Shown piece by piece: positions 1,653-16,643 of a stretch of 16,701 nt of DNA. Below the pieces are notes generated by a model that ran no database searches, was not told where the DNA came from, and was given only the letters and a program-made list of their open reading frames with translations. The translations under genes were made by a program, and so were the position numbers. Source of the DNA: Paenibacillaceae bacterium UBA6304 (GTDB lineage: Bacteria; Bacillota; Bacilli; Paenibacillales; Paenibacillaceae); the NCBI GenBank assembly GCA_002439285.1, contig DJTQ01000265.1, positions 1 through 16,701 of the forward strand. Direction: 5' to 3'. Position 1 is the stretch's first letter. Each line of letters opens with the position of its first letter.

Positions 1653-1654
1653 TT

Positions 1655-2608
1655 ATGGCAAATCAAACCATTAGCCCTGGGCCAGCACCCACTGCCGCAG
1701 TGACTAGACCTATCAGAAATAGCAGACTCGAACCGATCCTTTTTAATACGTTTAATACTTTGTTTATGATTTGCCTTGTAATTGTCACCTTATATCCTTT
1801 CCTGAATACGATCGTTGTTTCCCTGAATGCAGGGAATGATACGATCCGCGGTGGTATCTACCTCTGGCCGAGAGAATTTACTTGGCAGAACTACAAGGCA
1901 GTATTTGCTTCGGGAACGATATTTGATGCTTTCTTGATTTCTGTGGCAAGAACGGTGCTTTCGACGCTGTTGAATCTGGGTCTGACCACTATGCTGGCTT
2001 ATACACTGAGCCGGAAAGAATATGTGTTCCGCAAGCCGATTACTCTAATTTTTATCTTAACCATGTACTTTAACGCTGGTCTGATTCCAGGGTACTTTCT
2101 GATGAAAGACTTGCACTTACTGAATACGTTTTGGGTTTATGTCATTCCATCGATGATCAGCGCATTTAATATGATCGTCATCCGGACTTATATCGGAACG
2201 ATTCCGGAAAGTCTGGTTGAATCGGCAAGAATCGACGGAGCCGGAGACTTCAAAATATTTATTCGAATCATTTTCCCGCTCTGTAAACCGGTTCTGGCTA
2301 CGATTGCTTTGTTTGTCGCCGTAGGTGCTTGGAACTCTTGGTTTGATGCATTCATTTATACTTCGTCGCATCAAGAATTGAGTACGCTGCAATATGAGTT
2401 GATGAAGCTCTTATCATCCAGTATGAACGCGAACAGCAATCCGTCAGTAACTAACGGTGTCGGAATGACGCAGGGGGCGGACATGATTACTCCGATCTCG
2501 ATCCGTGCTGCGGTAACTGTTGTAGCCTCTGTACCAATTCTCCTGGTATATCCGTTCATGCAGAAATACTTTGTTGTCGGACTTAACGTAGGGAGTGTAA
2601 AAGAATAA
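1655..2608 (+). CDS. ytcP: ABC sugar permease, YtcP family (aldouronate transporter membrane subunit)
   Basis: This 317-residue membrane protein is the second permease of the importer. It has a Pro/Thr-rich N-terminal tail, hydrophobic segments near residues 32-55, 92-118, 129-150, 160-178 and 210-228, and an EAA loop at about 189-211 (ESARIDGAGDFKIFIRIIFP). The ending VVGLNVGSVKE is characteristic of YtcP-type CUT1 permeases. The start is ATG 1655, two bases after the lplB stop, with a purine-rich stretch GGGGAAGAGAGG at 1632-1643. Its TAA stop (2606-2608) shares its last A with the ATG of the GH43 gene, so transport and hydrolysis are translationally linked. It probably works with LplB and an unlinked ATPase. 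Confidence 0.92.
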   Translation: MANQTISPGPAPTAAVTRPIRNSRLEPILFNTFNTLFMICLVIVTLYPFLNTIVVSLNAGNDTIRGGIYLWPREFTWQNYKAVFASGTIFDAFLISVARTVLSTLLNLGLTTMLAYTLSRKEYVFRKPITLIFILTMYFNAGLIPGYFLMKDLHLLNTFWVYVIPSMISAFNMIVIRTYIGTIPESLVESARIDGAGDFKIFIRIIFPLCKPVLATIALFVAVGAWNSWFDAFIYTSSHQELSTLQYELMKLLSSSMNANSNPSVTNGVGMTQGADMITPISIRAAVTVVASVPILLVYPFMQKYFVVGLNVGSVKE

Positions 2609-4152
2609 TGACAAACTTAACGGTAACCTACTCCAACCCGGTACTTCCGGGATTCTACCCCGACCCGAGCATTGCTCGGGCCGGGGATGATTATTATTTG
2701 ATATGCAGTTCCTTTGAATACTTTCCCGGCGTGCCGATCTTTCACAGCCGGGATTTGATTCATTGGGAGCAGATCGGACATGTGCTGGATCGTGTCAGTC
2801 AATTGGATTTGGCCGGCCGGAAAAGCTCGGATGGCATATATGCGCCGACCCTCCGGTATCATGACGGAACCTTCTACATGATTACCACAGATGTGAGGGG
2901 GATCGGCAACTTTTACGTTACAGCCACGGATCCAGCGGGACCTTGGTCAAATCCGATCCTTGTTCCGTATGGCGGCATTGATCCGTCCTTGTTCTTTGAC
3001 GATGACGGAAAGGTGTATGTAACTGCCCAGCAAGGCGCGGACTATGACTCGCATGCGATTCAGTACGAGATCGATATCGCTACGGGGAAGCCCCTGTCCG
3101 AGCCGGTCGTCATTTGGAAAGGCGACGGCGGTCCCTGGACGGAAGGACCCCATTTGTACAAGATTAACGGCATGTACTATATCATGACCGCTTCCGGCGG
3201 CACCGCAAAAGACCACCGGGAAATTATCGGCCGGAGTTCCAATCCTTACGGGCCGTTTGAGTTGTACGAGCAGCCGATTCTGACGCACCGGGGGATCGAG
3301 CACCCGATTCAATATTTGGGCCACGCCGATCTGGTAGAGGACGGTAATGGAGACTGGTGGGCCGTCTTCCTTGGGGTGCGTCTCGTGGATTCGGGCTACA
3401 GTGTGCTCGGCAGAGAGACCTTCCTTGCGCCGGTGACCTGGAATGAAGCGGGCTGGCCGATGATCGATAACAATGCGGGTACCGTCGATCTGAACATGAG
3501 CGTGACAAGAGTGCCGGGGCAACCCGTGGCAGCAGTGACTCTCGATGGTAAGGATGATTTTGAGAGCGGCGAACTCGGGCTGGCCTGGACGTTTCTTCGT
3601 AATCCGGCAGAGGGGTGTTGGTCCTTGAAGGAACGGGCTGGGTGGCTCACTCTACACGGACAGGATGCGGGTCTGAGCGATCTTGGCGGGACAACCTTTG
3701 TAGGTCGCAGACAGCAGCATGTTCGTGCATCATTCAGTACCTGCCTCGAATTTGCTCCGCAAGAAGGGGAAGAGGCCGGACTGTGCGCCAGAAGAGATGA
3801 AGACGCCCATTACGAAATCAGCCTGAAGCGGATAAACGGACGTAATATAGTGGCGGCTCAGTTGACGATTCGCGGCGAGACGCAGACCGCAAGTGAGACG
3901 CCGATCGATGCCGACCGGGTCTGGTTCCTAATCGAAGCCGATGTGACCGAGTATAAGCTGTTCTATTCGCTGGACGGACAGAACTGGAACCGGCTCGCTG
4001 CCGGACCTGCGCGTGCGCTGTCTCCGGAAGACTTCGTGAATAAAATGTGCTTTACCGGTGTAGTGATTGGATTGTATGCCAGCGGCAACGGCAACGGCAA
4101 GCCTTCTTCCAGTCCGGCCTATTTCGACTGGTTTGAGACCCGCATGAGGTGA
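2608..4152 (+). CDS. xynB: GH43 beta-xylosidase (intracellular)
   Basis: This 514-residue glycoside hydrolase family 43 enzyme is expected to remove xylose from the non-reducing ends of xylo-oligosaccharides, with some arabinofuranosidase activity possible. The five-bladed propeller covers about residues 1-310. Its three catalytic carboxylates are visible: Asp19 in FYPDPS (base), Asp125 in GGIDPS (pKa modulator) and Glu179 in WTEGPH (acid). Residues from about 315 to the end form the beta-sandwich C-terminal domain found in xylosidase-type GH43 members. There is no signal peptide (MTNLTVTYSNPVLPGFY), so it acts in the cytoplasm. The ATG overlaps the ytcP stop by one base; GGGAG at 2591-2595 is a weak, rather distant ribosome binding site, so translational coupling is likely. 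Confidence 0.9.
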   Translation: MTNLTVTYSNPVLPGFYPDPSIARAGDDYYLICSSFEYFPGVPIFHSRDLIHWEQIGHVLDRVSQLDLAGRKSSDGIYAPTLRYHDGTFYMITTDVRGIGNFYVTATDPAGPWSNPILVPYGGIDPSLFFDDDGKVYVTAQQGADYDSHAIQYEIDIATGKPLSEPVVIWKGDGGPWTEGPHLYKINGMYYIMTASGGTAKDHREIIGRSSNPYGPFELYEQPILTHRGIEHPIQYLGHADLVEDGNGDWWAVFLGVRLVDSGYSVLGRETFLAPVTWNEAGWPMIDNNAGTVDLNMSVTRVPGQPVAAVTLDGKDDFESGELGLAWTFLRNPAEGCWSLKERAGWLTLHGQDAGLSDLGGTTFVGRRQQHVRASFSTCLEFAPQEGEEAGLCARRDEDAHYEISLKRINGRNIVAAQLTIRGETQTASETPIDADRVWFLIEADVTEYKLFYSLDGQNWNRLAAGPARALSPEDFVNKMCFTGVVIGLYASGNGNGKPSSSPAYFDWFETRMR

Positions 4153-4167
4153 GAAGACACTGTATAC

Positions 4168-4231
4168 AGGCAAGGCAATGGACAAAACGAAAGTCCACCG
4201 CCTAGGCCTAGCATGAAAATAGACCTTGCCT
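4168..4231. repeat. Nested stem-loop just after the GH43 stop
   Basis: The 8-base arms AGGCAAGG (4168-4175) and CCTTGCCT (4224-4231) can pair, and an inner TGGAC/GTCCA hairpin lies between them. No T tract follows. It may slow 3'-end decay or cause partial termination at the end of the transporter-GH43 message, but this is a weak structural call. Confidence 0.4.
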
Positions 4232-4290
4232 ATTGAAAACTACTGACAACGTGCTGACACGGCCCCGCGACCCTTATCGCAGCTCTCTAC

Positions 4291-4329
4291 TATCGGGGCC
4301 TTTCATCGTGTATCGGGCCTTTCATCGCG
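4291..4329. repeat. Two tandem copies of a 19-20 bp direct repeat
   Basis: TATCGGGGCCTTTCATCGTG (4291-4310) is followed directly by TATCGGGCCTTTCATCGCG (4311-4329), differing by one missing G and one base near the end. It sits at the left edge of repeat element B. A related stretch (GGCCTTATCATCGGGTCG) recurs near 4481-4498. Function unknown. Confidence 0.7.
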
Positions 4330-4339
4330 GCCCGAGTGG

Positions 4340-4540
4340 AAATAGTGGACTTTCTGGGCGCTATTCGCCTAATTATCTGCCGTTGGAGGGAAATAGGAGA
4401 CTTTCTGGGTCTTATTTTGCTGCTGACGCCCCTGAAAGGGTGATTCTTAGCAGGGTATAGACGAATAGCGACCTAAAAAGGCCTTATCATCGGGTCGAAA
4501 CCTGAATTTGGAGAAATAGGGCCCCAAAAGTCCGCTATTT
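4340..4540. repeat. Repeat element B: four AAATAG-N15-CTATTT palindromes in two mirrored pairs
   Basis: Four imperfect 27-bp palindromes occur at 4340-4366, 4391-4417, 4463-4489 and 4514-4540. The first two contain GGACTTTCTGGG or GAGACTTTCTGGG on the + strand; the last two carry the reverse-complement type (AAAAGTCCG), so the whole is roughly two-fold symmetric. Start-to-start spacings are 51, 72 and 51 bp. The centre (4419-4458) contains a stem-loop with CTGCTGA / TTAGCAG arms and an inner CCC/GGG pairing. The gap between GH43 and GH10 (4153-4728) shows no credible coding sequence. This resembles a dispersed intergenic repeat, but copies elsewhere cannot be seen from here. Confidence 0.75.
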
Positions 4541-4675
4541 CTCAAGGTGGAGGAGCTCATTCCGACAGGTCTCCCTCTTCGCTCCCCAAGTTTGGTTAAC
4601 CAGGGAGAGAGTGCAGGCGGAGGAGATATTTTCATGGAGGCCTCATCCTCCTTCGCTAAATCAATTGTTATGGGG

Positions 4676-4704
4676 TTCAAAAGAAAGGTGCAGTTCATTA
4701 CAGT
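4676..4704 (+). promoter_or_regulatory. Possible sigma-A promoter for the GH10 gene
   Basis: TTCAAA (4676-4681) and TACAGT (4699-4704) are separated by 17 bp. Each matches the consensus in four of six positions. It would place transcription start about 15-20 bases before the GTG start of GH10. Weak evidence, supported only by spacing and by the 576-base gap that separates GH10 from the upstream genes. Confidence 0.3.
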
Positions 4705-4728
4705 AAGCTTGAGAAGGAGGGGACAGAA

Positions 4729-5742
4729 GTGAATCAAACCGGGCTGGCTGTAGCCGCGCTAAAGGATATTTTTAGGGATGATTTCCGGATCGGTGCAGCA
4801 GTCAATCCCCGCACGATCCGGACGCAAGAGAATCTGTTGGCTCATCATTTCAACAGTATTACTGCAGAGAACGAGATGAAGTTTGTCAGCTTGCATCCGG
4901 CGGAAGGGACTTACACTTTTGAGGAATCCGACCAACTTGTTGCCTTTGCCCGCAAGCACGGCATGGCGATGCGCGGTCACACGCTCGTCTGGCATAATCA
5001 GACCAGCGACTGGCTGTTCCAGGATAATCAGGGCGAACCCGTAAGCAAGATCGTGCTGTTGGAACGGCTTCGTTCTCATATCCATACCGTAGTCGGGCGC
5101 TATAAGAATGATATTTATGCCTGGGATGTAGTTAATGAAGTGATCGCCGATGAAGGCGAACGGTTGCTTCGTCCATCCAAGTGGCTGGATATCGCAGGAC
5201 CCGACTTTATTGCCAAGGCGTTTGAATTCGCCCATGAAGCGGACCCGAACGCCTTGTTGTTCTACAACGACTATAACGAATCTCATCACCCCAAACGCGA
5301 CAAGATTTATACCTTGGTGAAGTCGCTCCTGGATCAGGGGGTTCCGATCCATGGGATGGGCCTGCAGGCCCATTGGAATTTGTTCGATCCTACCCTGGAC
5401 GACATCCGGGCGGCGATCGAGAGGTACGCTTCCTTGGGTTTACAATTGCAACTGACGGAGCTGGATATGTCGGTGTTCGCCTTTGATGACCACCGGACCG
5501 ACCTTAAGGTGCCTGCACCGGACCTGCTGGAACGACAAGCCGAATTGTACGAAGCCGCATTCCGTCTTTTGAGAGAATATCGCGATGTGATCAGTTCGGT
5601 GACCTTCTGGGGGGCTGCTGACGATTATACCTGGTTGAACGACTTTCCCGTACGCGGCCGGAAAAACTGGCCGTTCCTGTTCGACGAACAGCATCGGGCC
5701 AAGCCTGCTTATTATCGTTTGGTCAATATGGCAGGGAATTGA
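4729..5742 (+). CDS. xyn10A: GH10 endo-1,4-beta-xylanase (intracellular)
   Basis: This 337-residue single-domain GH10 enzyme is the usual length for intracellular xylanases that cut imported xylo- and glucuronoxylo-oligosaccharides. The acid/base is Glu137 in WDVVNE (132-137), and the nucleophile is Glu244 in LQLTELD. Other GH10 landmarks are TAENEMKF (45-52), [10 protein letters not shown] (82-91), GLQAHWN (211-217) and [12 protein letters not shown] near the C-terminus. It has no signal peptide and no carbohydrate-binding or S-layer domain. The start is GTG 4729, chosen because AAGGAGGGG at 4714-4722 is well placed. In the characterised Paenibacillus aldouronate cluster an equivalent intracellular GH10 works with GH67. 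Here GH43 precedes GH10, a different order from the one I recall for Paenibacillus sp. JDR-2. Confidence 0.93.
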
Positions 5743-5759
5743 TTCTTATTCGAACAGTA

Positions 5760-5798
5760 GAGAGAGACGCCCTCCAAAGGGGTGTTTCTTTCCTTTTT
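5760..5798 (+). terminator. Terminator-like hairpin between the GH10 and GH67 genes
   Basis: Bases 5760-5772 pair with 5780-5792 (13 consecutive pairs, three of them G-U) around the 7-base loop TCCAAAG. A T run follows (TTTTT, 5794-5798). It lies 18 bases after the GH10 stop and 31 bases before the GH67 start, inside what should be one operon. Partial termination would reduce aguA relative to xyn10A unless aguA has its own promoter. Confidence 0.5.
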
Positions 5799-5828
5799 AA
5801 GAACAATCATTTGCAGGAGGGAATCGGG

Positions 5829-7910
5829 ATGGGAACGGAGAGTACATTGTATAAGGCTTGGCTTCAGTATAACGAAGTCGGGGAGACTGCGCTCCGCAGA
5901 ATTTACGGAGAAATGCTTAACCGGATCGTTGTGGCCGAGGAAACGCCGGGAACTTGTGCTGCTGCGCTGCGCGAGTTGGAGTCAGGTGCCAAGTCCATGT
6001 TGGGAGTAAACCCCGTGTTTATGAATGTGGCTCCTTCCGGCGGTTCTTTTCTGCGTATCGGGCTAGAGATGGGGGAGACTCCTGGCGGAGAAAGTACGGT
6101 AGGGGGCCGAAAATGGGTAAAGGAAGAAGAGGCCTTCTCGCTGAAAAAGGTCTCCGCAGCGGACGGAGGCGACCGGCTAGAGTTTAAACTGACCGGACGA
6201 TCCCCATCGGGCCTATTATATGGCGTGTTCCATTTGCTTCGCGGTATCGCTCTCGGGCTTAGTCCGGAGAAGCTGGAGACAGAGGAGTGCCCGGTTAACC
6301 GGCTGCGGATGATCAATCAATGGGATAATGCGGATGGATCGATAGAGCGGGGCTATGCGGGGAATTCCATTTTTTACGAGGACGGAAAAATCGTCACCGA
6401 CACCTCGCGGATCCGGGACTATGCCCGGATGCTCGCTTCGGTTGGAATCAACGCGATTTCGATCAATAATGTGAATGTGCATGAAATCGAGACCCGGTTT
6501 ATTACAGAGGAAGGGCTGCCTGACGTAGCCCGTGTGGCGGACGTGTTCCGGGAATACGGCATTGCGCTGTTCCTGAGCATCAACTTTGCGGCTCCGCTTG
6601 CGATCGGCGGCGTCGGTACTGCGGATCCGCTCGATCCGAACGTGCGGCAATGGTGGGCTGAAACGGCCAACCGGATCTATCGGCATATTCCCGATTTCGG
6701 CGGGTTCGTGGTCAAGGCTGATTCCGAGCATCGGCCAGGTCCGTTCGCATATGGCCGCGATCATGCCGACGGGGCGAATATGTTGGCCGGAGCGCTTGAA
6801 CCGCACGGCGGGCTCGTTATCTGGCGCTGTTTCGTGTACAACTGCATGCAGGATTGGCGGGATCGCTCCACCGATCGTGCACGTGCGGCTTATGACCATT
6901 TTAGACCGCTCGATGGCAAGTTCCGCGACAATGTTCTGCTCCAGATCAAGAACGGTCCGATGGACTTCCAGGTACGGGAACCGGTATCTCCTTTGTTCGG
7001 GACTATGAGCCGTACCAATCAGGTGCTCGAATTTCAGATTACCCAGGAGTATACCGGGCAACAGCGACATTTATGTTATCTGATTCCCCAGTGGAAGCAG
7101 GTTCTGGACTTCGACACGCATGCGGTAAGCAAGGACGGACAAGTAAAAAATATCGTGGAAGGTTCTTTATTCGGCATGAAATTTAGCGGCGTGGCGGCGG
7201 TTTCCAATATCGGCAACGGGGAGTGCTGGACGGGGCATCCGTTGGCTCAGGCCAATCTGTACGGATACGGCCGATTGATCTGGAACCCGGATCTGTCCGC
7301 CGAGGAGATTGCTGACGAGTGGACGCGGCTGACGTTCGGAAACGACAAAGCCGTCGTCGACAAAATAACGCAGATGCTAATGGCTTCCTTATCGATCTAT
7401 GAGAGTTATACCTCACCGTTGGGTGTTGGTTGGATGGTCGTTCCTCATTACCATTATGGTCCCGATGTGGACGGTTACGAGTACTCGCGTTGGGGGACTT
7501 ATCATTTTGCCGACCGGGACGGGATCGGGGTGGACCGGACAGCCGCCACGGGTACAGGATACGTTACTCAATACTATGACCCGAACCGGCAATTATACGA
7601 TTCTGTGAAGAAATGTCCGGATGAATTGCTGCTGTTCTTTCATCATGTGCCTTATAGTCACCGGCTTCATTCCGGCAATACGGTCATTCAGCACATTTAT
7701 GATACGCACTTTGCCGGAGCGGAAGCGGCGGAAGGATTGGGGTTGATTTGGTCCGCTCTAAAGGGAAGAATCGATGCCGAACGTTATGAAGCGGTCGAGT
7801 CCAGACTGGCAGAGCAGGCGGAGCATGCCAAGCATTGGCGGGACGTGATCAATACATATTTCTATCGTAAATCCGGTGTACCCGATAAGATGGGGAGACG
7901 GATATATTAA
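5829..7910 (+). CDS. aguA: GH67 alpha-glucuronidase
   Basis: This 693-residue cytoplasmic enzyme releases 4-O-methyl-D-glucuronic acid (or glucuronic acid) from the non-reducing-end xylose of aldouronates produced by xylanases. An N-terminal domain (about 1-150) is followed by a TIM barrel with SINNVNVHE (211-219), [16 protein letters not shown] (291-306), [13 protein letters not shown] (333-345) and [16 protein letters not shown] (370-385), and then a helical C-terminal domain. Asp356 (YDHF) and Glu384 (REP) are 28 residues apart, like the catalytic pair in known GH67 enzymes; Glu278 is the likely acid by spacing. The start is ATG 5829 because AGGAGG (5815-5820) is 8 bases upstream; the frame also opens at 5739, but that would run through the hairpin before the gene and has no ribosome binding site. 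Confidence 0.93.
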
Positions 7911-8355
7911 AGTTTGTCTGCTCTAAACGGACGAAATCACAATTTGTCCAGCTGAAAGTGGGCACGAGAGATGTACGAGGCCACCCAAGGTACTCTCCGA
8001 TCTCTTTGACAGTCATCAATATCTCGTGGGTTTACATTAAAATAAGCCTATATACAGAACCGTGGAAAAAGGGAGAGGACATCGAGCCGGCGACCTTTCA
8101 GAGGCAACGAGTCCATCATTTGAAAGACATTTCTTCAAAATTATCCGTGAGTGGTGGACAATATAACGAGGGTATCCCTCATTCATTTATGATGATTTTT
8201 GGGACACCCTCTCGCACTAAGAAGTTTGCCCCAGTAGAGGAGCTCCCCTCTAAGCGTCCGGCTAAGGGGCACGAATTAATTACTTTAACTAACCAGTCAC
8301 GAAACAGGCGCAGATGAAGCAAACTTTTCAGTAACCAGTAACCAGTAATCATTAA
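7911..8355. other. Non-coding convergent intergenic stretch
   Basis: No credible gene is visible between aguA and repeat element A. The frame open at 7958-8317 has no good ribosome binding site, runs through an imperfect inverted repeat and encodes a composition unlike a folded protein. The stretch contains the hairpin at 8168-8211 and a short CAGTAAC-type repeat at 8331-8362, otherwise nothing recognisable. Confidence 0.6.
8168..8211. terminator. GGGTGTCC-type hairpin (possible terminator, aguA side)
   Basis: GAGGGTATCCC (8168-8178) pairs with GGGACACCCTC (8201-8211) with one A/C mismatch. The minus-strand loop (AAAAATCATCATAAATGA...) resembles the loops of the hairpins ending uxuB and the GH8 gene, so all three belong to one family. 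No T tract follows on the + strand. It is the first strong hairpin after aguA, 258 bases downstream. Confidence 0.45.
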
Positions 8356-8362
8356 CCAGTAA
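8331..8362. repeat. Short degenerate tandem repeat of CAGTAAC
   Basis: CAGTAAC occurs at 7-base spacing and again after an imperfect copy (CAGTAATCATTAAC). It ends where repeat element A begins. Probably simple slippage-derived sequence; no function can be assigned. Confidence 0.6.
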
Positions 8363-8722
8363 CTTTCATGTATTCACCGCTCGGATCGATAGGAGATAGG
8401 AGTGACTGTTGGGAGCAAATTAACTGTATTTCCTACAGTTAATTACCGTGAATCCAGTCATTCTGGATAATTACCTGTATTTTGTACAGTTAATTCTTAT
8501 CCTTCGCGTCCTTTTCGCTCCAAGCGCCTAAATTAACTGTAGGTTTTCCAGTTAGTTTGGTCCGGACCTGGCCTACCGCGCGAAATAACTGTAGGATATC
8601 CAGTTAATCTTCATAGAGCGGCCTGGTGAACCCGGGGAAGAGAGCGACATGGTGAAAGTGTGCTTGGTCAGGAGAAAGGGGGTGTCCTTCAGTCATCTAC
8701 GATGACTTTTGGAACACCCCCT
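8356..8722 (-). repeat. Repeat element A, left copy (inverted relative to the right copy)
   Basis: The reverse complement of this stretch matches 14239-14604 over its whole length, about four-fifths identical by eye with a few small indels. It carries four palindromes of the form TAACTG-N9-CAGTTA at 8421-8441, 8472-8492, 8534-8554 and 8586-8606. Start-to-start spacings are 51, 62 and 52 bp. The best one (8418-8444) has perfect 11-base arms and a 5-base loop. The spacers also contain palindromes (ATCCAG-TCATT-CTGGAT and GGTCCGGACC). The inner end is the uxuB terminator hairpin. It lies between convergent genes aguA and uxuB. No transposase is present in the window. Confidence 0.85.
8678..8721 (-). 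terminator. Terminator hairpin for uxuB (uxuR-uxuA-uxuB operon)
   Basis: GGGGGTGTCC (8678-8687) pairs with GGAACACCCCC (8711-8721), with one bulged base. An inner perfect hairpin AGTCATC-TAC-GATGACT stacks inside it. On the minus strand the stem is followed by TTTCTCC, a short T-rich tract, 28 bases after the uxuB stop. The + strand side reads CTTTATCTTTT, so it may act in both directions. Confidence 0.7.
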
Positions 8723-8748
8723 TTATCTTTTCCCATTCGGACAGCTGG

Positions 8749-9603
8749 CTAGACGCCGGAATAAGCCATGAAGCCGCCGTCCACCGGAATCACGGTGCCG
8801 GTGACGAAGCCGGAAGTATCGGTATCGACGAGCCACAGCAGCGTGCCGAGCAGGTCCTCCGGAACACCGAAGCGACGCATCGGCGTGTGCGTGATGATTT
8901 TGTGAGAGCGCTCGGTGAGCGACCCGTCTTCGTTCGTCAGCAGGCTGCGGTTCTGTTCCGTCAGGAAGAAACCGGGAGCCATAGCGTTGACGCGGATACC
9001 GGACTCAGCCAAATGTACCGCCAGCCATTGGGTAAAGTTGTTAATCGCTGCCTTGGCCGCGCTGTAGGCGGGGACCTTGGTCATCGGGGATGGGGCACTC
9101 ATCGAGGAAATGTTAAGCACGGCCGCTCCGGGCCGCCCGATCATTTCCTTGGTGAACACCTGTGTCGGAATCAAGGTTCCGACGAAATTGAGGTCCATGA
9201 CATTCCGTACTCCCGTCAGGCTGAGGTCAAAGAAGGTCGTTACCGCCGGGTCTCCCAAATCGCTGTCTTTGAATGTCTCGTTGGTCGTGTTGGCACTGGG
9301 CTGATTGCCCCCCGCGCCATTGATCAGAATATCGCAAGGACCTAGTTGCCCGCGTACTCGCCGCTCCGCTTCCTGGACGCTTGCGGCATCCGTCACGTCG
9401 CAGGCGACCGCGATCGCCACGCCGCCATTCTCGCGAATTTCCTTTGCGACCTGTTCGCCACGCTCCAGGGTGCGGTTCAGGATCGCCACCTTCATGCCTT
9501 GGCGGGCCAACTCCAGCGCCATCGCCCGGCACAGGATGCCTGCGCCGCCGGTGATGACCGCCGTTTTCCCTTCTAAGGAACTGTGTTTAGGTAGTGGACA
9601 CAT
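8749..9603 (-). CDS. uxuB: SDR-family D-mannonate oxidoreductase (fructuronate reductase)
   Basis: This 284-residue short-chain dehydrogenase/reductase most likely interconverts D-fructuronate and D-mannonate with NAD(P)H, the Bacillus-type (YjmF) UxuB rather than the long-chain enterobacterial enzyme. The nucleotide-binding turn is [10 protein letters not shown] (18-27), followed by CDV (68-70) and NGAGG (95-99), where NAG is usual. The catalytic set is Ser167, Tyr180 and Lys184 (YSAAK). The C-terminal [12 protein letters not shown] is typical of this subgroup. ATG 9603 is supported by GGAGGAGG at 9613-9620 and makes the gene overlap the uxuA end by 17 bases, so the two are translationally coupled. 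The neighbour uxuA uses the product mannonate. A generic SDR sugar dehydrogenase is the alternative; context makes UxuB much more likely. Confidence 0.88.
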
Positions 9604-10696
9604 CTAAATTGGCCTCCTCCTCTAATGGATGATCCGAAGTTGGTGAGGAAAAAGCGTCCCATAGTCCCCACAAGTACATGATGCCAAGTGCACGGTCATA
9701 TAGGCCGTAGCCGGGACGGCAAACCTCTCCCCATAGATGGCGACCGTGGTCTGGACGGACATAACCCTTGAAACCGCTGTCATAGTAGGCCTTGACGATC
9801 CCGCGAATATCAACCGTACCGTCAGAAGTCCGGTGGGAGGTCTCGATAAAATCGCCGTTTTCATAAACACGGACGTTCCGGATATGCGCAAAAGGAATCC
9901 GCCCCTCAAATTCATGAATCATGGCTACGATGTCATTGTCCGGATTGGCGCCGAGCGATCCGCTGCACAGGGTAATGCCGTTGGCCGGACTGTCATGCAG
10001 GGAGAGGAATCGGCGGAAGTTGGCCTGGTTCGTTAAGATCCGGGGCAGCCCGAAGATCGGCCATGGCGGATCATCCGGGTGGACGGCCATGAGAATGCCG
10101 TTTTGCTCGGCGACTGGGATGACGGCATCCAGGAAGTATTTCAGGTTCTCCCAGAGGTCTTCCTCCGATACCTGTCGGTAAGCTTCGAACAGTGAGGTCA
10201 GATGCTCCAGCCGTTCAGGTTCCCAACCCGGCATCGTCAACGCGCTGTTCTGATTGATTGTCCGCACGAGCTCCAAAGGATCAACGCCGCGGATTTTAGC
10301 CTGTTCGAAAAAGAGGGCGGTCGACCCGTCGTCCATCGCCTTGTGCAGGTCGGTCCGAACCCAGTCGAACACGGGCATGAAGTTGTAGCAAATTACTTTT
10401 ACGCCGGCCTGGGCCAGCTTCTCAATCGTCCGGATGTAGTTGGCGATATAGAGGTCCCGGGAAGGGAGCCCTAGCTTAATGTCCTCATGTACATTCACGC
10501 TTTCCACAACTTCTGTATGCAGGCCGTGTTGATCACCCAACTGACGCATTTCCATAATGCGTTCCATCGGCCATTCTTCTCCCGCCGGAATATCATGAAG
10601 CGCCCAAACGATGCCTTCCACGCCGGGAATTTGTTTGATCTGTTCCAGCGAAACCGTATCATTGCCTTCGCAGAACCAGCGAAATACCATACGCAT
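9587..10696 (-). CDS. uxuA: Mannonate dehydratase
   Basis: This 369-residue enzyme dehydrates D-mannonate to 2-keto-3-deoxy-D-gluconate, the third intracellular step of glucuronate catabolism. Family motifs are [12 protein letters not shown] (63-74), [15 protein letters not shown] (103-117), [14 protein letters not shown] (203-216), [13 protein letters not shown] (243-255), HIRNVRV (271-277) and RPDHGRH (314-320). The likely Mn2+ ligands His206, Cys244, His271 and Asp316 are all present. The start ATG 10696 has the G-rich ribosome binding stretch AAGGTGGTGGAG just upstream (10699-10710). It lies 34 bases after uxuR and overlaps uxuB, so it is the middle gene of a three-gene operon. The gene for KDG kinase/aldolase is not in the window. 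Confidence 0.95.
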
Positions 10697-10730
10697 AACT
10701 CCACCACCTTATGAATGAATGAAATATGAA

Positions 10731-11417
10731 CTACTGCGCGGTTACGAAAAAGTCCGGAAACTTCTCTTTAAGCACACTCAGATTCGCAATGCTCAAAGTC
10801 AGGTGCTCCTGCATCATGCGGTCGGCGCGGTCTCCATCCTGCATACGCACGGCATCGAACATTTGGCGATGCTGGTCATACAAGTGTTCCCAATGGGGAT
10901 CCGTCTTCAGCCAGAGAACCCGGCTCCGGTTGAGATGGGCGTTCATTTGCTGAATCACCGACCAGGTGCCGAGCTTGCGGCAGCCCTCGAATAGAATGCG
11001 GTGAAACTCCTCATCCAGCTCGAACATGGCACGGCCATCATGCAAACGCAGAGATTCCTGTTGCAGTTCGAGATTGCGTTCCAAAGCGGCCAAGTGCTTC
11101 TCGGGATAACTCTGGCAAGCCAGCCGGATTACGGCGCGTTCCAACTGTTCTCGCATAAATCGCGCCTCTTCGACCAGGTCCGGGTCGATAAGCGAGACCT
11201 TTGTACCCCGCTGAGGCAGCACTATAAGCAATCCTTCTTGGGCTAGGCGTACGAAGCTTTCGCGGACTGGGGTCCGGCTGACCTGAAAGGCCACGGACAT
11301 TTCTTTTTCGGATAATGTCGTTCCCGGAACCAGCTCAAGATTGACGATTTGTTGTTTTAATTGGGCGTAAACGTTGCTTCCGGCGGAGCCTGCCGAGGAA
11401 TGCGGCAATTCTTTCAA
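10731..11417 (-). CDS. uxuR: GntR/FadR-family (FCD) transcriptional regulator of hexuronate genes
   Basis: This 228-residue DNA-binding regulator has an N-terminal winged helix (about 15-75; LSEKEMSVAFQVSRTPVRES is the recognition region, and GLLIVLPQRGTKVS the wing) and a helical FCD ligand domain (about 85-215). The FCD metal/ligand residues appear intact: Asp135 and His139 (DEEFH), His183 (DQHRQ) and His205. The start is TTG 11417, because AGGAGGTGAT (11421-11430) is a near-perfect ribosome binding site 7 bases upstream; a longer frame begins at 11546 but would cross the operator palindrome. It is first in the uxuR-uxuA-uxuB operon and divergent from uxaC, so autoregulation and glucuronate- or fructuronate-released repression are likely. 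Naming as UxuR is by context. Confidence 0.85.
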   Translation of the reverse strand: MKELPHSSAGSAGSNVYAQLKQQIVNLELVPGTTLSEKEMSVAFQVSRTPVRESFVRLAQEGLLIVLPQRGTKVSLIDPDLVEEARFMREQLERAVIRLACQSYPEKHLAALERNLELQQESLRLHDGRAMFELDEEFHRILFEGCRKLGTWSVIQQMNAHLNRSRVLWLKTDPHWEHLYDQHRQMFDAVRMQDGDRADRMMQEHLTLSIANLSVLKEKFPDFFVTAQ

Positions 11418-11435
11418 ACGATCACCTCCTATTTT

Positions 11436-11471
11436 GTTCCATACTACCATACTTGTATGGTAGTATGGAAC
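11436..11471. promoter_or_regulatory. Perfect 36-bp palindromic operator between uxuR and uxaC
   Basis: Bases 11436-11452 and 11455-11471 are perfect 17-base reverse complements around a 2-base centre (TT). The core reads ACCATACTTGTATGGT, and each arm holds a further CATACTACCAT / ATGGTAGTATG half. It lies 18 bases before the uxuR start and 91 before the uxaC start, the only large palindrome between these divergent genes. It is the obvious binding site for the GntR-type regulator. TAGTAT inside each arm could serve as a -10 on either strand, but no convincing promoter was found. Confidence 0.8.
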
Positions 11472-11561
11472 TGAAAAGGTGAATATTTTTTTCCATAACG
11501 GAGAACCGCTTGAAAACAAGAGTTGTACGAAGCAAGAATCGATCAAGGAGGAAGATAAAAC

Positions 11562-12977
11562 GTGCCAACGTGGAACTTGGAAAACTTGCTGTTGACCGGC
11601 ACCAGCGCCAAACGTTTATATCACGATTATGCAGCGGGGATGCCGATTTACGATTATCACAATCATCTGAATGCGGACGATCTGGCCGCCGACCGGCGCT
11701 TTCGCAATCTGACCGAACTTTGGCTGGAAGGCGACCATTACAAGTGGCGGGCGATGCGCTGGCTAGGCATAGATGAGTCGCTAATTACCGGGGATGCCGA
11801 CGATCTGGCCAAATTCAAGGCCTGGGCCGGCGCGGTGCCGAAACTGGCGGGCAATCCGCTCTATCATTGGAGCCATTTGGAGTTGCAACGCCACTTCGGA
11901 GTCAAAGAGAGGCTCGGCGAAGATAATGCGGAAGAAATATGGCACCGCTGCAATGAACAGCTCGCCGATCCTTCCCTTCATGCCGCCGGCATTCTGAAGC
12001 GGTTTGAGGTTCGCGTAGCTTGCACGACCGACGATCCGGCGGACGGGCTGGAGGCGCACCGGAAGCTGCGTCAGGCAGGCGCTAGCCATCCTACCGTAGT
12101 GCCGACGTTCCGGCCGGATCGCGCACTGGATATCCAAGCTGCGGACTTTGTGCCATACATGAGTGAGCTGGGACAGCGGGCAGGGCTTGCGATCGGCGAT
12201 TATGACGCGCTGATTCAGGCGCTCGGCCTTCGGATGGATGAATTTCACCGGACCGGGTGCCGGTTATCGGATCACGGCTTCGGGGATTTTCCGTATGAAG
12301 CCGCTACGGAGCGGGAGGTCCGGACGATTTTTGCCAAAGCCCTTCAAGGGGAGACTGTGACCGCTCTGGAAGAGCGGAAATACCGCACTTTCACGCTGCT
12401 GCGCCTAGGAGAAATGTATGACGCTCGCGGATGGACCATGCAGCTGCATATCGGCGCTATACGCAACAATAATGACCGGATGACTCAGCGTCTCGGCAAG
12501 AATAGCGGATTCGACTCAATCCTGGACTATCATTTGGGCGCGGCTTTAAATGCCTTTTTGAATGAATTGGACACAATGAACCGGCTTCCTAAAACGATTG
12601 TTTACAGCTTGTATCCTTACCAGTACGAGCTTATCGCCACGGCGATCGGCAACTTTCAATCCGGGAAGGTCGCCGGCAAGCTCCAATTGGGTGCCGCCTG
12701 GTGGTTCCACGATCAGAAAGAGGGAATGCTTCAGCAGCTCAAGGCGCTGTCCTCAACAGGCGTGTTAAGTACCTTCGTCGGCATGCTGACCGATTCTCGC
12801 AGCTTTATGTCGTTTCCGCGCCACGAATATTTCCGCCGGGTCCTGTGCCGCCTGTTGGGCGAATGGATCGACGAAGGGGAATTGCCCGCAGACTACGATT
12901 ACATCGGGGCGATGGTTCAAGACATCTGCTTCCATAATGCGCAGCACTATTTCGGTATTCCTGAAGGAGAGGCCTGA
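11562..12977 (+). CDS. uxaC: Glucuronate isomerase
   Basis: This 471-residue cytoplasmic enzyme converts D-glucuronate to D-fructuronate, the first step after GH67 releases the uronic acid. The amidohydrolase-like metal motif HxH is His33/His35 in YDYHNHLNADD. Other conserved segments are YHWSHLELQRHFG, CTTDDPADGLEAH, QLHIGAIRNNN, and the C-terminal region WWFHDQKEGMLQQLKALS with MLTDSRSFMSFPRHEYFRR. Length matches the family (about 465-475). The start is GTG 11562 with AAGGAGGAA at 11545-11553. It is transcribed away from uxuR-uxuA-uxuB across the shared operator, so both arms of the hexuronate pathway should respond to the same regulator. Only 97 bases separate it from the GH8 gene. Confidence 0.95.
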   Translation: MPTWNLENLLLTGTSAKRLYHDYAAGMPIYDYHNHLNADDLAADRRFRNLTELWLEGDHYKWRAMRWLGIDESLITGDADDLAKFKAWAGAVPKLAGNPLYHWSHLELQRHFGVKERLGEDNAEEIWHRCNEQLADPSLHAAGILKRFEVRVACTTDDPADGLEAHRKLRQAGASHPTVVPTFRPDRALDIQAADFVPYMSELGQRAGLAIGDYDALIQALGLRMDEFHRTGCRLSDHGFGDFPYEAATEREVRTIFAKALQGETVTALEERKYRTFTLLRLGEMYDARGWTMQLHIGAIRNNNDRMTQRLGKNSGFDSILDYHLGAALNAFLNELDTMNRLPKTIVYSLYPYQYELIATAIGNFQSGKVAGKLQLGAAWWFHDQKEGMLQQLKALSSTGVLSTFVGMLTDSRSFMSFPRHEYFRRVLCRLLGEWIDEGELPADYDYIGAMVQDICFHNAQHYFGIPEGEA

Positions 12978-13037
12978 TTTGGGTAAAAATCGGCGCGATC
13001 TGCACATGGAATGCAGCGACTTCGTTTGATACTTTGG

Positions 13038-13051
13038 TGATAGCGCTATCA
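13038..13051. promoter_or_regulatory. cre-like / LacI-family operator palindrome upstream of the GH8 gene
   Basis: TGATAGCGCTATCA is a perfect 14-bp palindrome with the central CG typical of LacI/CcpA-family sites. It matches the cre consensus TGWAANCGNTNWCA at every fixed position except one (T for A at the fourth). It is 10 bases before the ribosome binding site of the GH8 gene and 61 bases after uxaC. It could mediate carbon catabolite repression or belong to a local LacI-type regulator outside the window. Confidence 0.55.
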
Positions 13052-13074
13052 TCAGAAAATAGGGGAGAGTGTTT

Positions 13075-14217
13075 GTGAGCATGAGTGGACAATCCGGAGC
13101 TTTTTATACGGGACAATACCGGAATTTGCTGGCGGAGTATGGCTATAGCGGTCAGGAGATCCGCGAACGCTTGGAGCAGACCTGGCAGGCGATGTACGAA
13201 GGGGATGAAGATATGCGGATCTATCATGAATCCGGTGAAGATATGGGGTACATGATGGATACGGGTAACCTGGATGTGCGTACCGAAGGCATGTCTTACG
13301 GAATGATGATGGCCGTCCAGATGGACCGTCAAGATGTGTTCGACCGGCTCTGGAAATGGACAATGACTTACATGTACATGACGACCGGGGAGAATGCCGG
13401 TTACTTCGCCTGGTCCTGCGCTACCGATGGCTCGCGCCTGTCGGACGGGCCGGCGCCGGACGGCGAGGAGTATTTTGCAATGGCGTTATTCTTCGCGTCC
13501 CATCGCTGGGGCGACCGGGAAGCGCCGTTCGATTACGGCACTCAGGCCAGGGATCTGCTTCGCACTTGTATTCACCGGGGTGAGGACGGCATCGGTTACC
13601 CGATGTGGAACCCGGACAATAAGCTGATTAAATTTATACCAAATTGCGAATTTTCGGACCCTTCATATCATTTGCCGCATTTTTACGAATTGTTCGCGTT
13701 GTGGGCCTACCCGGAAGACCGTTCGTTCTGGAAAGAGGCCGCCGAAGCCAGCCGTGAATATTTAAAAATCGCCTGCCATCCCGTTACCGGTCTGTCACCG
13801 GAATATGCTTATTATGACGGGACGCCCAATCATGAGCGGGGGTTCGGATACTTCTTCAGCGACTCCTATAGAGTGGCGGCTAACCTAGGGCTGGACTGGG
13901 AATGGTTTGGGGCCGATCGCTGGGAACGCGAAGCGGCGGACAGAATCCAGGCGTTTTTTGCCGATAAACAACCGGACGATTACCGCAGATACACGATCGC
14001 CGGAGAGCCATTCGAGGAGAAATCGCTGCATCCCGTCGGGCTGCTGGCAACGAATGCAATGGCTTCGCTGGCTGCGGAAGGGCCGAATGCCCGGGCGAGC
14101 GTGGAGCTGCTCTGGAATACACCGCTGCGGACAGGGGTGCGCAGATATTACGACAACTGCTTATATTTGTTTGCCTTACTCGCAGTAAGCGGAAATTTCC
14201 GCATTTGGATGCCGTAA
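13075..14217 (+). CDS. rex8A: GH8 reducing-end xylose-releasing exo-oligoxylanase
   Basis: This 380-residue GH8 enzyme has no signal peptide and should act in the cytoplasm, removing single xyloses from the reducing ends of xylo-oligosaccharides. The acid/base is Glu71 in RTEGMSYGMMMA. Tyr198 (PSYH), Asp263 (FSDSYR, base) and His319 (SLHPVG) fall at positions I recall for the reducing-end exo-oligoxylanase of Bacillus halodurans, where the Tyr and His define the exo mode; this favours Rex over GH8 endoglucanase or chitosanase. The start is placed at GTG 13075, 7 bases after AGGGGAG (13061-13067). GTG 13069 is too close to that site, and ATG 13081 is possible. It follows uxaC on the same strand, may be co-transcribed with it, and ends at a clear terminator. 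Confidence 0.9.
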   Translation: MSMSGQSGAFYTGQYRNLLAEYGYSGQEIRERLEQTWQAMYEGDEDMRIYHESGEDMGYMMDTGNLDVRTEGMSYGMMMAVQMDRQDVFDRLWKWTMTYMYMTTGENAGYFAWSCATDGSRLSDGPAPDGEEYFAMALFFASHRWGDREAPFDYGTQARDLLRTCIHRGEDGIGYPMWNPDNKLIKFIPNCEFSDPSYHLPHFYELFALWAYPEDRSFWKEAAEASREYLKIACHPVTGLSPEYAYYDGTPNHERGFGYFFSDSYRVAANLGLDWEWFGADRWEREAADRIQAFFADKQPDDYRRYTIAGEPFEEKSLHPVGLLATNAMASLAAEGPNARASVELLWNTPLRTGVRRYYDNCLYLFALLAVSGNFRIWMP

Positions 14218-14238
14218 CCATTTGTAGAAGCAAGAAGC

Positions 14239-14285
14239 GGGGTGTCCCAAGAGTCATCGTAGTTGGCTGAAGGACACCCCTTTTT
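14239..14285 (+). terminator. Intrinsic terminator after the GH8 gene
   Basis: GGGGTGTCC (14239-14247) pairs perfectly with GGACACCCC (14272-14280) and is followed by TTTTT, 21 bases after the GH8 stop. The 24-base loop contains GTCATCGTAG, shared with the uxuB terminator. It forms the inner end of the right copy of repeat element A. Confidence 0.85.
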
Positions 14286-14604
14286 CCTGACCAAGCTCAC
14301 TCCACTTTCGCCATGTCGCTCTCCTCCCGGGCTCACCAGGCCGCTATATGAAAATTAACTGGAAAACCTACAGTTATTTCGCGCGGTAGGCTAGGTCCGG
14401 ACAAACTAACTGGAAAACCTACAGTTATTTTAAACACTTGCAGCGAAAAGAGCAGAAAGGATAAGAATTAACTGTATAAATTACAGCTAAGTATCCAGAA
14501 CGACTGGTTTCACAGTAATTAACTGTAGGTAATACAGCTAAGTTGCCCCCAACATTCATTCCTATCGATCTGGGCTGTGAATGCATGAAGTTAAGAGTTA
14601 CTGG
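14239..14604 (+). repeat. Repeat element A, right copy
   Basis: This copy runs from the terminator hairpin to GTTACTGG and is the inverted counterpart of 8356-8722. Its four palindromes TAACTG-N9-CAGTTA/CAGCTA are at 14356-14376, 14407-14427, 14469-14489 and 14520-14540, with start-to-start spacings of 51, 62 and 51 bp. The first two contain GGAAAACCTA between the arms and the last two the opposite-type TGTA...TACA core, so the quartet is mirror-symmetric. The spacers include GTCCGGAC and CCAG-AACGA-CTGG. It lies between the convergent genes for GH8 and the TrpD-like protein. No gene is visible in 14218-14723. Confidence 0.85.
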
Positions 14605-14723
14605 AAAATGAGCTTGGAGGTTGGGTGGCTTTGCCTTGCCCACAACCTGCTAAAGCAGGCGGCACTATGCCAGCAAAGAGAAAGAGCCAGACAAGAATAA
14701 CATCTCAGGCCGGCATTTGCAGG

Positions 14724-15779
14724 TTAGCCGGAATGCGGCGCCAATGGAGTCCCCGTCCCCGACAGGGCTTCCCTCCACCGGCAGAACAATTGCCATGGCG
14801 ATCCGTCTTCGATCAGGGATTTGCTCGTATAAACGCCTTCTTCTACAGAATCGGTAAGCCCCGCTAAATGAAGACGAAGCCCAGCGTTTAGAATCGTTTG
14901 ATTGATAAATGCCATGTGAGCTTCCCCGGTTAGCACCGTTTCCGTGACGCGCAACTGTTCAGCAGCGGTCCATGTGATGTCCGGCAGAGAAGACTCCAGC
15001 CCGTACGTTTCCGGATCGATCATATGAAGCTTGGCATCGCCGTTCTCAACAAGATAAGTTCGTGTAGGACGGTCGATATAAACATCCTCCGAACCTTCCA
15101 CGCCCTGCACGATCAAGGCCTTGCGATAATTTAGCCGCTGGAGCAGCTGGGCCGTCCGGTCGAACATCGTATTATGAAAAACCCCGTAGACCAGGTAAGG
15201 CGAGTGGCTGTAATCGACCAGCTTTTCTACGGTATTAAGGATCGTCCGCAGACCGAGCTCTAACCGGATCTGCCGTAACCGTCCGAGAGGCGGGCACCAG
15301 GAATCTGCCGGTACGAACAGCACCCCGGTCCGCTGGGCGGCTTGAACCGCCTGGTCCCGGCCGGGTCTCCCTTCATTCACACCCATTTCCCGTAGCACAT
15401 CGGGCAAAGTGATGCCCCATTTGGGCGGGAGCTTATCTGTACCGTGCAGCGTCACCGGCAATCCGGCGGAAGCCAGCACAAAGGCTGCTGCAAAGCCGGC
15501 CATAAAGGAAGATCTTCTGCCGTCATAGGGGCCGGCACAGTCGAGCGAGCCCGGACGCGGGAAGCGGAAGGCATGGCTGCGGCAGACATTCGCGAAGGCA
15601 TACAGTTCTTCGACGCTCTCCATTTTGATGCGTTCCGCCAGAAAAAAAGCACCGATTTGCGCCGGAGTCGCAGACTGGTCAAAGATCATTTCCGCTGCGG
15701 CCAGAGCTTCTCCGTAGCTCAAGTCGCGGGCGCCGCGCTTGCCCCGGCCCACTTCTTTTAAAACCTCTGTCATGTTCAT
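14724..15779 (-). CDS. TrpD/YbiB-like glycosyltransferase-3 family protein, not a normal anthranilate phosphoribosyltransferase
   Basis: This 351-residue protein has the two-part fold signature of the anthranilate phosphoribosyltransferase family: an N-terminal helical domain (about 1-70, with LSYGEALAAAEMIFDQSATPAQIGAFFLAERIKMES) and a C-terminal domain. The PRPP loop GTGGD of true TrpD is replaced by CAGPYDGRRSSF (81-92), and HGNRSVSS by HGTDKLPPKWG (112-122), so catalysis of tryptophan synthesis is unlikely. YbiB/TrpD2-type relatives bind nucleic acid, which is one possibility. The start ATG 15779 has GGAGGAG 6 bases upstream; ATG 15773 is an alternative. It is 33 bases downstream of an ANTAR regulator gene and probably co-transcribed with it in a nitrogen-linked locus. 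No trp genes are nearby. Exact role unknown. Confidence 0.75.
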   Translation of the reverse strand: MNMTEVLKEVGRGKRGARDLSYGEALAAAEMIFDQSATPAQIGAFFLAERIKMESVEELYAFANVCRSHAFRFPRPGSLDCAGPYDGRRSSFMAGFAAAFVLASAGLPVTLHGTDKLPPKWGITLPDVLREMGVNEGRPGRDQAVQAAQRTGVLFVPADSWCPPLGRLRQIRLELGLRTILNTVEKLVDYSHSPYLVYGVFHNTMFDRTAQLLQRLNYRKALIVQGVEGSEDVYIDRPTRTYLVENGDAKLHMIDPETYGLESSLPDITWTAAEQLRVTETVLTGEAHMAFINQTILNAGLRLHLAGLTDSVEEGVYTSKSLIEDGSPWQLFCRWREALSGTGTPLAPHSG

Positions 15780-15812
15780 GAAGAGCTCCTCCTCGTCGAT
15801 GCTGCTTATAGG

Positions 15813-16421
15813 CTAAGTTCTTAATTGTTGATGCGCTTTAACGATCAAGGTTGCGATGTCGACAATTCGCTTACGCTCATTCATCGCCCGTTTACGCAAC
15901 ACCTCGTAGGCTTCCGCCTCCGAAATCCGGTTAATCTCGCATAGAATCCCTTTGGCGAGGTCGATCCACTTCCGTTCTTCCAGCCGGGAAACGAGCTGAG
16001 CACGTTCATCCATCCATTGCTGCCGTTCAAAGAAATGTTTGGCCCCGAGATGAAGCGCCCAATGAAGCTCTTGCGCGGACATGGACGGAGTCAGGATCCC
16101 GTCAACCGGGATGTCATCTTCACACGATTCCAAGGAGGATGCAGCTGTCGCTGCACTGCACCACCACATTAAAGGAACAGCCTTCGACTTGGACACCAAG
16201 TTTCCCCAGACCGAGATCCCGGAAATAGGCAGATGAAGGACGACAGCGTCTGCCGTCTTGACCCTTTGGCAAATTTCTTCTGCCACACCGGAGGCGAACA
16301 CCTGATATCCGTTAGATTTCAGTATGCATTCAGGCTCGCCGAGGGGAGCGGAGGCATCTGGAGGAAGAATCCTCTCTCCGCTAGGGGAGATCTGTTCGCG
16401 AATGACCAGCAGAAAACGCAT
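15813..16421 (-). CDS. ANTAR-domain RNA-binding regulator with degenerate receiver domain (NasT-like)
   Basis: This 202-residue protein has an N-terminal receiver-like region (about 1-125) and a C-terminal ANTAR domain (about 143-197; LVSRLEERKWIDLAKGILCE with ALA-rich helices and NERKRIVDIATLIV). ANTAR proteins bind paired hairpins in nascent leader RNA and prevent termination; NasT and NasR control nitrate/nitrite assimilation this way. The receiver lacks its phosphorylation site: the usual Asp position is His63 in DAVVLHLP, and the N-terminal acidic pair is replaced by VIREQ. The start is ATG 16421, with GGAGAGGAGG upstream; a TTG start nine codons earlier would place that site inside the gene. 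It probably forms an operon with the TrpD-like gene. The target is inferred to be the nitrogen gene right of the window. Confidence 0.82.
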   Translation of the reverse strand: MRFLLVIREQISPSGERILPPDASAPLGEPECILKSNGYQVFASGVAEEICQRVKTADAVVLHLPISGISVWGNLVSKSKAVPLMWWCSAATAASSLESCEDDIPVDGILTPSMSAQELHWALHLGAKHFFERQQWMDERAQLVSRLEERKWIDLAKGILCEINRISEAEAYEVLRKRAMNERKRIVDIATLIVKAHQQLRT

Positions 16422-16563
16422 CCGGAGTATGCCTCCTCTCCATTTCAATCCATTCCGTGAAGGACTTCTCTTTTCCGAATTGCTAATAATCGCAAAAAAC
16501 CTAACATGAGATTAAGCGGAAGGAAAATTTAACTTTATTTTCCCGCGATTTTTCTGAAAAAGC

Positions 16564-16593
16564 AATATAATTTCCACAAAAATATCAAATTAA
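16564..16593 (-). promoter_or_regulatory. Tentative promoter for the ANTAR gene
   Basis: On the minus strand TTAATT (16588-16593) and TATATT (16564-16569) are separated by 18 bp, about 145 bases before the ATG. The region is so AT-rich that chance matches are expected. Confidence 0.25.
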
Positions 16594-16643
16594 CATAACA
16601 ATTTAAATAAAATCGTACTAATCTTGGTCTATATAACCATACG

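Follow-up and report, generated by a model that had tools for sequence, protein, structure and literature searches.

Why should repeats of different sequence share one geometry? The question is raised by a 16,701-bp stretch of DNA from Paenibacillaceae bacterium UBA6304 (contig DJTQ01000265.1; this whole stretch is called the window here), in which three elements of four short, palindrome-like units each lie between genes, two belonging to a repeat family termed A (A left and A right) and one to a second family, B. A first-pass annotation had given start-to-start spacings of 51/62/51 bp (A right), 51/62/52 bp (A left) and 51/72/51 bp (B), all of which are reproduced when the coordinates are recounted in the window (Table 1). 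Elements of this kind keep a fixed geometry, carry genome-specific words amid unrelated spacers, occupy intergenic positions mostly at the 3′ ends of genes, and have a transposon landing between their units.

Geometry of a four-site class

The unit of the class is 25–27 bp long and mostly has the feet AAWTAR...YTAWTT around a variable inside. In the A unit (AAWTARCTG...CAGTTAATT) the feet stand just as far from the centre as those of B. A and B belong to one class and have these feet in common, so that the earlier description of the two families as unrelated in sequence does not wholly hold. Two further genomes (G250 and G241) have A-like cores within AATA...TATT feet, with 51-bp spacing.

The A and B repeats of the window are beyond chance, because many further copies exist in its own assembly (G000; 4.3 Mb in 452 contigs, 85.9% complete). 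A left as query gives at least 40 places with 45 matches (40 of 109 candidates scored), and B gives 16 loci with 21 matches. Four units are present in 31 of the 40 A copies examined, at 51/62/51 bp in 21 and 51/62/52 bp in nine, the second unit being mispicked in the remaining one. The aligned A core of 30 copies, out of 35 of which five partial or diverged at one end were dropped, lacks no base in 25 copies, one base in four and four bases in a single copy cut by a contig end, inserted bases not being counted. Around it, other repeats form a mosaic in which insertions and deletions are numerous. Near full-length A copies are 84–91% identical, indicating recent spread. When the A word is sought with the spacing left free, 127 pairs turn up in the assembly; among the 39 genomes covered there are also 63 pairs in G017 and 1–4 in four others, with none for the control; among 50 listed pairs of G017, 38 are at 51 bp, nine at 62 bp and one each at 50, 52 and 61 bp (36–66 bp allowed), and their spacers are unrelated by eye. 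One A copy (L037; G000:C324:9170-11387) has on both sides a direct duplication some 90 bp long (53 + 33 bp exact), an arrangement unique among the A copies screened for repeats of at least 14 bp. Elements of P. faecis (L162, L164, L166 and L176) are embedded in mosaic repeats of greater length, where a GGCACTAGCGTTGCATTAA-like piece recurs in either orientation.

Outside the assembly, a feet-only pattern (AATA-N17-TATT twice, 36–66 bp apart) matches 61 of 148 genomes of the family, 12 of which hold 24–165 pairs, and the matches listed lie nearly all at 51 bp. The reversed pattern, used as control, gives 0–4 matches per genome, so that single feet-pattern matches carry little weight. In 400-kb samples of three genomes an inner length of 17 alone gives 51-bp pairs, bar one stray at length 19; in samples of this size G014 and G007 most often show distances of 51, 72 and 123 bp, and G116 shows multiples of 51 bp. 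A pair fixed at 51 bp is present in 50 of 246 genomes of the order (control match in two), and a three-unit pattern matches the window's assembly alone among 179 phylum-wide genomes, all but six of which lie outside the class Bacilli. As a DNA query over 40 genomes of the genus, B finds only its own assembly, plus three others weakly. In P. oralis, 226 pairs occur at up to one mismatch (control 1), and those listed span 0.16–5.14 Mb without evident clustering by eye.

A four-unit scan that allowed central spacings of 59–73 bp yields at least 117 stretches. The 80 listed stretches analysed come from Paenibacillus, Cohnella, Solibacillus, Lysinibacillus, Rossellomorea, Neobacillus, Cytobacillus and one 'Bacillus sp.', and give 100 matches, arrays being counted repeatedly (for example, 8 times in L298). 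Their central spacing is 60 bp in one, 61 in 31, 62 in 23, 63 in one, 71 in two, 72 in 40 and 73 in two, with none at 64–70 bp. The earlier claim that the central gap differs by about one helical turn is thereby upheld, and continuously varying spacings, which had been named as a refuting result, were looked for among the copies and not found. A looser finder (centre 40–99 bp) returns 128 entries, 35 of them at 51 bp, which are tandem arrays; eight fall outside the clusters (43, 44, 48, 50, 56, 81, 82 and 94 bp), some being overlapping readings of one array. Over 2.34 Mb, much of it chosen for holding elements, 51 bp is the spacing of 408 unit pairs; the six control spacings (44–46 and 56–58 bp) average 2.5. 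Clusters consist mostly of two pairs 112–113 or 123 bp apart (47, 23 and 38), besides 36 single pairs and some arrays. Long arrays at four loci (L298, L310, L261 and L270) have a period of 123 or 113 bp, that is, 51+72 or 51+62 repeated.

Steps of 51, 61.5 and 72 bp fit a helical repeat of 10.22–10.25 bp (score of 0.99 at 10.25 bp versus 0.62 at 10.5 bp), and the best period is 10.2–10.25 bp. As judged from spacing, this period suggests DNA that is slightly overwound or wrapped. Three elements common to related species have 2 gap columns inside versus 280 in their flanks, where 834 of 1,360 positions are identical.

Convergent gene ends are favoured by the elements and divergent gaps are rarely occupied, gene orientation being taken from scripted open reading frames of at least 150 residues. 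Among 82 placed AATA-type elements (92 less eight overlapping an open reading frame and two at an edge, six odd-centre entries having been dropped first), 35 are convergent, 41 tandem and 6 divergent; the 27 placed A copies (32 less two and three) divide into 17, 8 and 2. As background, 13–25% of intergenic bases are convergent in three 400-kb samples.

Genome-specific words and a putative assembly platform

Each unit was cut into two half-sites, identity being the best of eight, in 15 genomes that each have three or more distinct elements. Half-sites show an identity of 0.79 within a genome and 0.59 between genomes, as against 0.60 and 0.55 for spacers; in P. albiflavus the values are 0.91 and 0.50 for half-sites and 0.57 and 0.54 for spacers. 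Recurrent words include GAGCTA in P. castaneae, RCGGAYTT with AGCACYT in P. albiflavus and ACGCTG in NEAU-GSW1. In the B elements of the window's assembly, conservation is 0.68–0.80 in the inner part, 0.84 at the centre, 0.44 in the spacer and 0.31 in the flank, the feet being left out of this count as part of the search pattern. This assembly seems to hold two systems, TARCTGKA with a centre of 62 bp (A) and words of the RNGGACTT/RGGCCC type with a centre of 70–72 bp (B). Geometry and genome-specific words are well supported, and the earlier proposal of a class of elements in many copies, with a fixed layout and diverged recognition sequences, is upheld.

The best reading of these features, and on balance a probable one as far as sequence can tell, is that the element is a double-stranded DNA assembly platform for a species-specific DNA-binding complex on one face of the helix. 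Such a platform of about 190–200 bp would offer four sites of about 25 bp, or eight half-sites, on one helix face, in two pairs of sites 51 bp apart, the pairs being set one turn (60–63 bp) or two turns (71–73 bp) wider. A dimeric sequence-specific protein would sit on each site; four dimers, or two tetramers, might join over the element, and the complex would bend or wrap the DNA with about 10.25 bp to the turn. In step with the reading head of the protein the inner word would drift, and we propose that the geometry is kept because the complex fixes it. Tentatively, and with less assurance than for the platform itself, the elements can be pictured as nucleoprotein scaffolds all along the chromosomes of Bacilli, built by a protein family that keeps one assembly geometry but has a reading head that switches word (in places feet) by species, scores of intergenic platforms following by concerted evolution, two systems in one genome, and a transposon finding its sites via the assembled complex. 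As the likeliest role, architectural or insulating complexes at gene ends are weakly suggested, as is a history in which the elements spread as passive or once-mobile repeats and are used as transposon landing pads.

Several observations weigh against a platform for a DNA-binding complex. No recurrent neighbour gene that could encode the reader was found around the elements, the broadest cluster of neighbour genes resembling ABC transporters by eye, and no co-distribution with element richness was seen for the two transposase families tested (Y1 and IS256-type). A protein gene tracking the arm families, as anticipated by the first-pass annotation, did not come to light, either linked or co-occurring. 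Half-sites of G241 are unlike within the genome (0.49 versus 0.55; 3 elements). In the three elements shared by related species the inner parts are kept at 157 of 180 positions, no better than the spacers (269 of 296), and the feet alone do better (116 of 120). Solibacillus and P. faecis show a small contrast between inner parts and spacers, their feet being selected by the search, and the words of P. oralis are loose by eye. Arrays with periods of 51, 113 and 123 bp could grow by slippage, and 3′-end placement can be explained by selection against insertion in promoters. Other feet also occur at the same spacing (see below), so the feet are not constant over the order.

If the platform reading holds, a layout that stays exact to the base pair in different bacterial families, around a word that changes, would be the mark of an unseen DNA-binding complex. 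Its reader, if found, would define a new chromosome-organising or mobile system with up to 226 pairs per genome, and would provide a natural series on protein–DNA specificity evolving in concert at many sites; the transposon landing between units would be a handle on the complex.

Alternative explanations and known systems

According to the alternative that fares best, the elements are non-autonomous mobile repeats of the MITE or REP/REPIN type, with transposase sites at both ends and the middle deleted, moved by a host transposase. High copy number, intergenic scatter, the recent spread of A and the mirrored pairs of some genomes speak for such an origin, as does one element of P. phocaensis and P. 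rubinfantis that is alike up to the feet and has unrelated flanks. We nevertheless regard it as rather unlikely. At the ends of 133 distinct elements no general target duplication is seen at the 4–9 bp tested: 4–5-bp duplications are as frequent as in shuffles, 6-bp ones occur three times versus 0.85 (maximum 4) and 7-bp ones twice versus 0.19 (maximum 1), and there are none of 8–9 bp. An earlier duplication screen covered repeats of at least 11 bp only (14 bp for A copies). Flank conservation beyond the feet, low in B of the window's assembly as given above, is 0.41–0.47 in two other groups. Y1 transposase/RAYT genes (PF01797) are absent from 9 of 18 element-rich genomes, among them the 85.9%-complete assembly of the window, and present in 8 of 14 poor ones. 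Matches to this transposase number 20 in G038, 8 in G020 and 14 in G007, many being near-identical by score.

Further evidence on mobility comes from the DNA between pair clusters. Among the open reading frames (20 in all) between 9 of 15 neighbouring pair clusters, L210 has an IS256-type transposase gene (Transposase_mut) and L274 one of IS3-like type; in L274 the next unit is cut, as if by insertion into the array. In these 9 of 15 no autonomous transposon was found to have terminal inverted repeats in common with the elements. Relatives of the IS256-type transposase of L210 are present in 89 of 392 genomes of the order at E 1e-60. Among the 31 copies studied (L440–L469 and L435), one locus each from 30 genomes plus P. 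oralis, unit pairs flank the transposase gene on both sides in three (P. koleovorans, P. macerans and P. faecis), a situation that favours mobile elements, and on one side in four. The transposon is about 1.4 kb long, and both of its ends were located in 27 copies, with an 8-bp duplication that is exact in 25, agrees at 6 of 8 letters in P. koleovorans and at 2 of 8 in L451. Ends of its own, together with an 8-bp duplication within the spacer, show that this transposon was inserted, which argues against its being the mover of the elements; the elements serve as its landing place. Of 18 element-rich genomes 10 lack the transposase family, and of 14 poor ones 10 have it; the transposase, considered as reader or autonomous partner, was on that count rejected as reader.

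When the empty sites of the 27 copies are rebuilt, the insertion point of 19 lies between repeats that agree in 16 or more of 24 letters, as against a mean of 4.15 and a maximum of 8 when right flanks are swapped. The repeats are spaced 51 bp in seven, 50 bp in two, 102 bp in two, and 53, 57, 60, 63, 64, 65, 68 and 71 bp in one each. Four sites (L450, L457, L459 and L462, from G168, G253, G117 and G314, respectively) have other feet and belong to genomes without an AATA pair, and insertion between repeats in such genomes indicates that the 51-bp pair is wider than its AATA form. Other feet at an empty-site spacing of 51 bp are those of L446, L457 and L468 (AATCAACGG, AATGTATGC and TGTAAGGCC). 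The transposon data give separate evidence of the 51-bp pair and leave the odds of the readings unchanged.

A structured RNA or single-stranded DNA, in which the units form arrays of hairpins, either locally or as one long hairpin pairing unit 1 with 4 and 2 with 3, had been anticipated as a folded nucleic acid reading the layout. The units had been taken for palindromes, and those of A and of a number of other families are nearly perfect ones; the A core consensus folds into nested as well as local hairpins, a terminator-like hairpin lies at the end of the A composite, and one-sided A-to-G changes at ±8 keep a G–T(U) pair on the + strand. The inner complementarity of units nevertheless ranges by genome from 0.30 (chance 0.25) to 1.0. 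In P. albiflavus (0.30) and P. arenilitoris (0.32) the two half-sites of a unit carry different words, whose pairing barely exceeds chance. Each change in the arms of A copies is confined to one side, and none of 959 cells is changed on both sides to another Watson–Crick pair. Independent mutation of the arms, the second result named beforehand as refuting, is thus seen in part, yet half-sites are kept as half-sites. One-sided arm changes and complementarities of 0.30–1.0 together indicate that units behave as paired protein half-sites and not as stems. Mirrored polarity, also claimed initially, is frequent without being general: FFRR describes 8 of 11 B elements of the window's assembly, with 3 ties, and all 5 elements of P. 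albiflavus, FFFF or FRFR being the best model elsewhere. Over 107 elements FFRR is best in 23 and FFFF in 19, with 43 ties (random units, FFRR in 75 of 2,000). Elements running all in one direction (3 of 6 in P. koleovorans, 3 of 3 in P. castaneae) also speak against hairpins, helical phasing is not expected of RNA, and no Rfam family matches at its gathering score (5 sub-threshold matches only). For the class, hairpins are largely refuted and have become very improbable.

It is just as doubtful that the elements are satellite-like repeats without a reader, their phase stemming from shared descent and slippage. Tandem arrays in G116, G098, G303 and Bacillus sp. FJAT-26390 and the recent relatedness of A copies fit that account; against it, spacers are near background in B of the window's assembly, P. 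albiflavus and PL91 while words and exact lengths persist, and two centre classes one turn apart, with none between, recur in several bacterial families. A 17-residue coding repeat is excluded by steps of 61, 62 and 71–73 bp, which do not all keep frame, and a viral origin, raised by a match at L366, was set aside since by eye that contig resembles a defective prophage carrying its host's array.

A platform for a DNA-binding complex has its closest parallels in the phage 186 CI wheel and in LrpC (Lrp-type octamers), where several dimer sites in helical phase wrap DNA on an oligomer; 186 CI recognizes two kinds of half-site, and such multi-dimer wrapping repressors act at one or few operators. 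Phased sites with conserved half-sites are found here too, but in scores of copies per genome, with 51-bp steps and a word that changes by species, and the system is known from DNA alone. REP, BIME and REPIN repeats with their RAYTs are palindromes of 20–40 bp, dispersed between genes at high copy, often at 3′ ends, and the insertion sequences IS1397 and IS621 land in REP-type repeats. The present elements are likewise short, dispersed, intergenic and, in part of the genomes only, palindromic, and an insertion sequence, here of IS256 type, likewise lands in them. They differ in their fixed spacing of 51 and 60–63 or 71–73 bp, in their feet with genome-specific words, and in that half of the element-rich genomes have no RAYT.

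The bcr1–bcr18 repeats of the Bacillus cereus group, as the part of their account drawn on here describes them, are dispersed, 100–400 bp long and have mobility features; bcr1 averages 39 per strain, and the repeats are confined to that group and tied to a TTTAT motif (PMC6542083). They too are dispersed repeats of Bacilli, and the description in that part, which has no four-site phased layout, sets the present elements apart (PMC6542083). Tandem forms, with repeats of about 25 bp and spacers of about 26 bp, resemble CRISPR arrays and could be flagged by array finders; the spacers of the G116 arrays, however, are near copies of one another rather than unrelated, and it is as four-unit elements that the class usually occurs. 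Annotation may mistake arrays for CRISPR arrays or MITEs. No description of the class was found in the open-access literature, one in a subscription journal being possible.

The window and its three elements

The window is a xylan/aldouronate utilisation cluster, in which Pfam families GH43, GH10, GH67, SDR, UxuA, GntR-FCD, UxaC, GH8, Glycos_transf_3 and ANTAR are found (Pfam on window 1–16701); transporter genes at 44–2608 were assigned by eye. The B element is flanked by tandem genes, GH43 (end 4152) and GH10 (start 4729). Convergent genes flank both A elements: GH67 (end 7910) and SDR (8749–9603, − strand) at A left, and GH8 (end 14217) and a Glycos_transf_3 gene (14724–15779, − strand) at A right.

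Table 1. Positions of the repeat elements, their units and the associated hairpins in the window.
Feature	Position	Strand	Remarks
B element	4340-4540	.	steps 51/72/51
B unit 1	4340..4366	.	27 bp, AAATAG...CTATTC
B unit 2	4391..4417	.	51 bp after unit 1
B unit 3	4463..4489	.	opposite polarity; 72 bp after unit 2; locus L061 is the same place
B unit 4	4514..4540	.	51 bp after unit 3
A left element	8421-8606	+	steps 51/62/52
A left unit 1	8421..8441	+	TAACTG-N9-CAGTTA
A left unit 2	8472..8492	+	
A left unit 3	8534..8554	+	opposite polarity
A left unit 4	8586..8606	+	
Terminator-like hairpin	8675..8720	+	right end of A left composite
Terminator-like module	14239..14284	-	at A right, as at A left
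A right element	14356-14540	-	inverted copy; steps 51/62/51
A right unit 4	14356..14376	-	
A right unit 3	14407..14427	-	
A right unit 2	14469..14489	-	
A right unit 1	14520..14540	-	

An inverted repeat of 25 bp (88%) at 11428–11479, between the GntR gene and uxaC, is probably the GntR regulator's own operator. The terminator-like GGGTGTCC...GGGACACCC hairpin listed in Table 1, present also at 8170–8209, is a repeat in its own right, matched in 22 of 39 genomes of the genus (counted from the listing). Four contigs of G022 have it 86 bp from their start, as though it ended a repeated insertion element.

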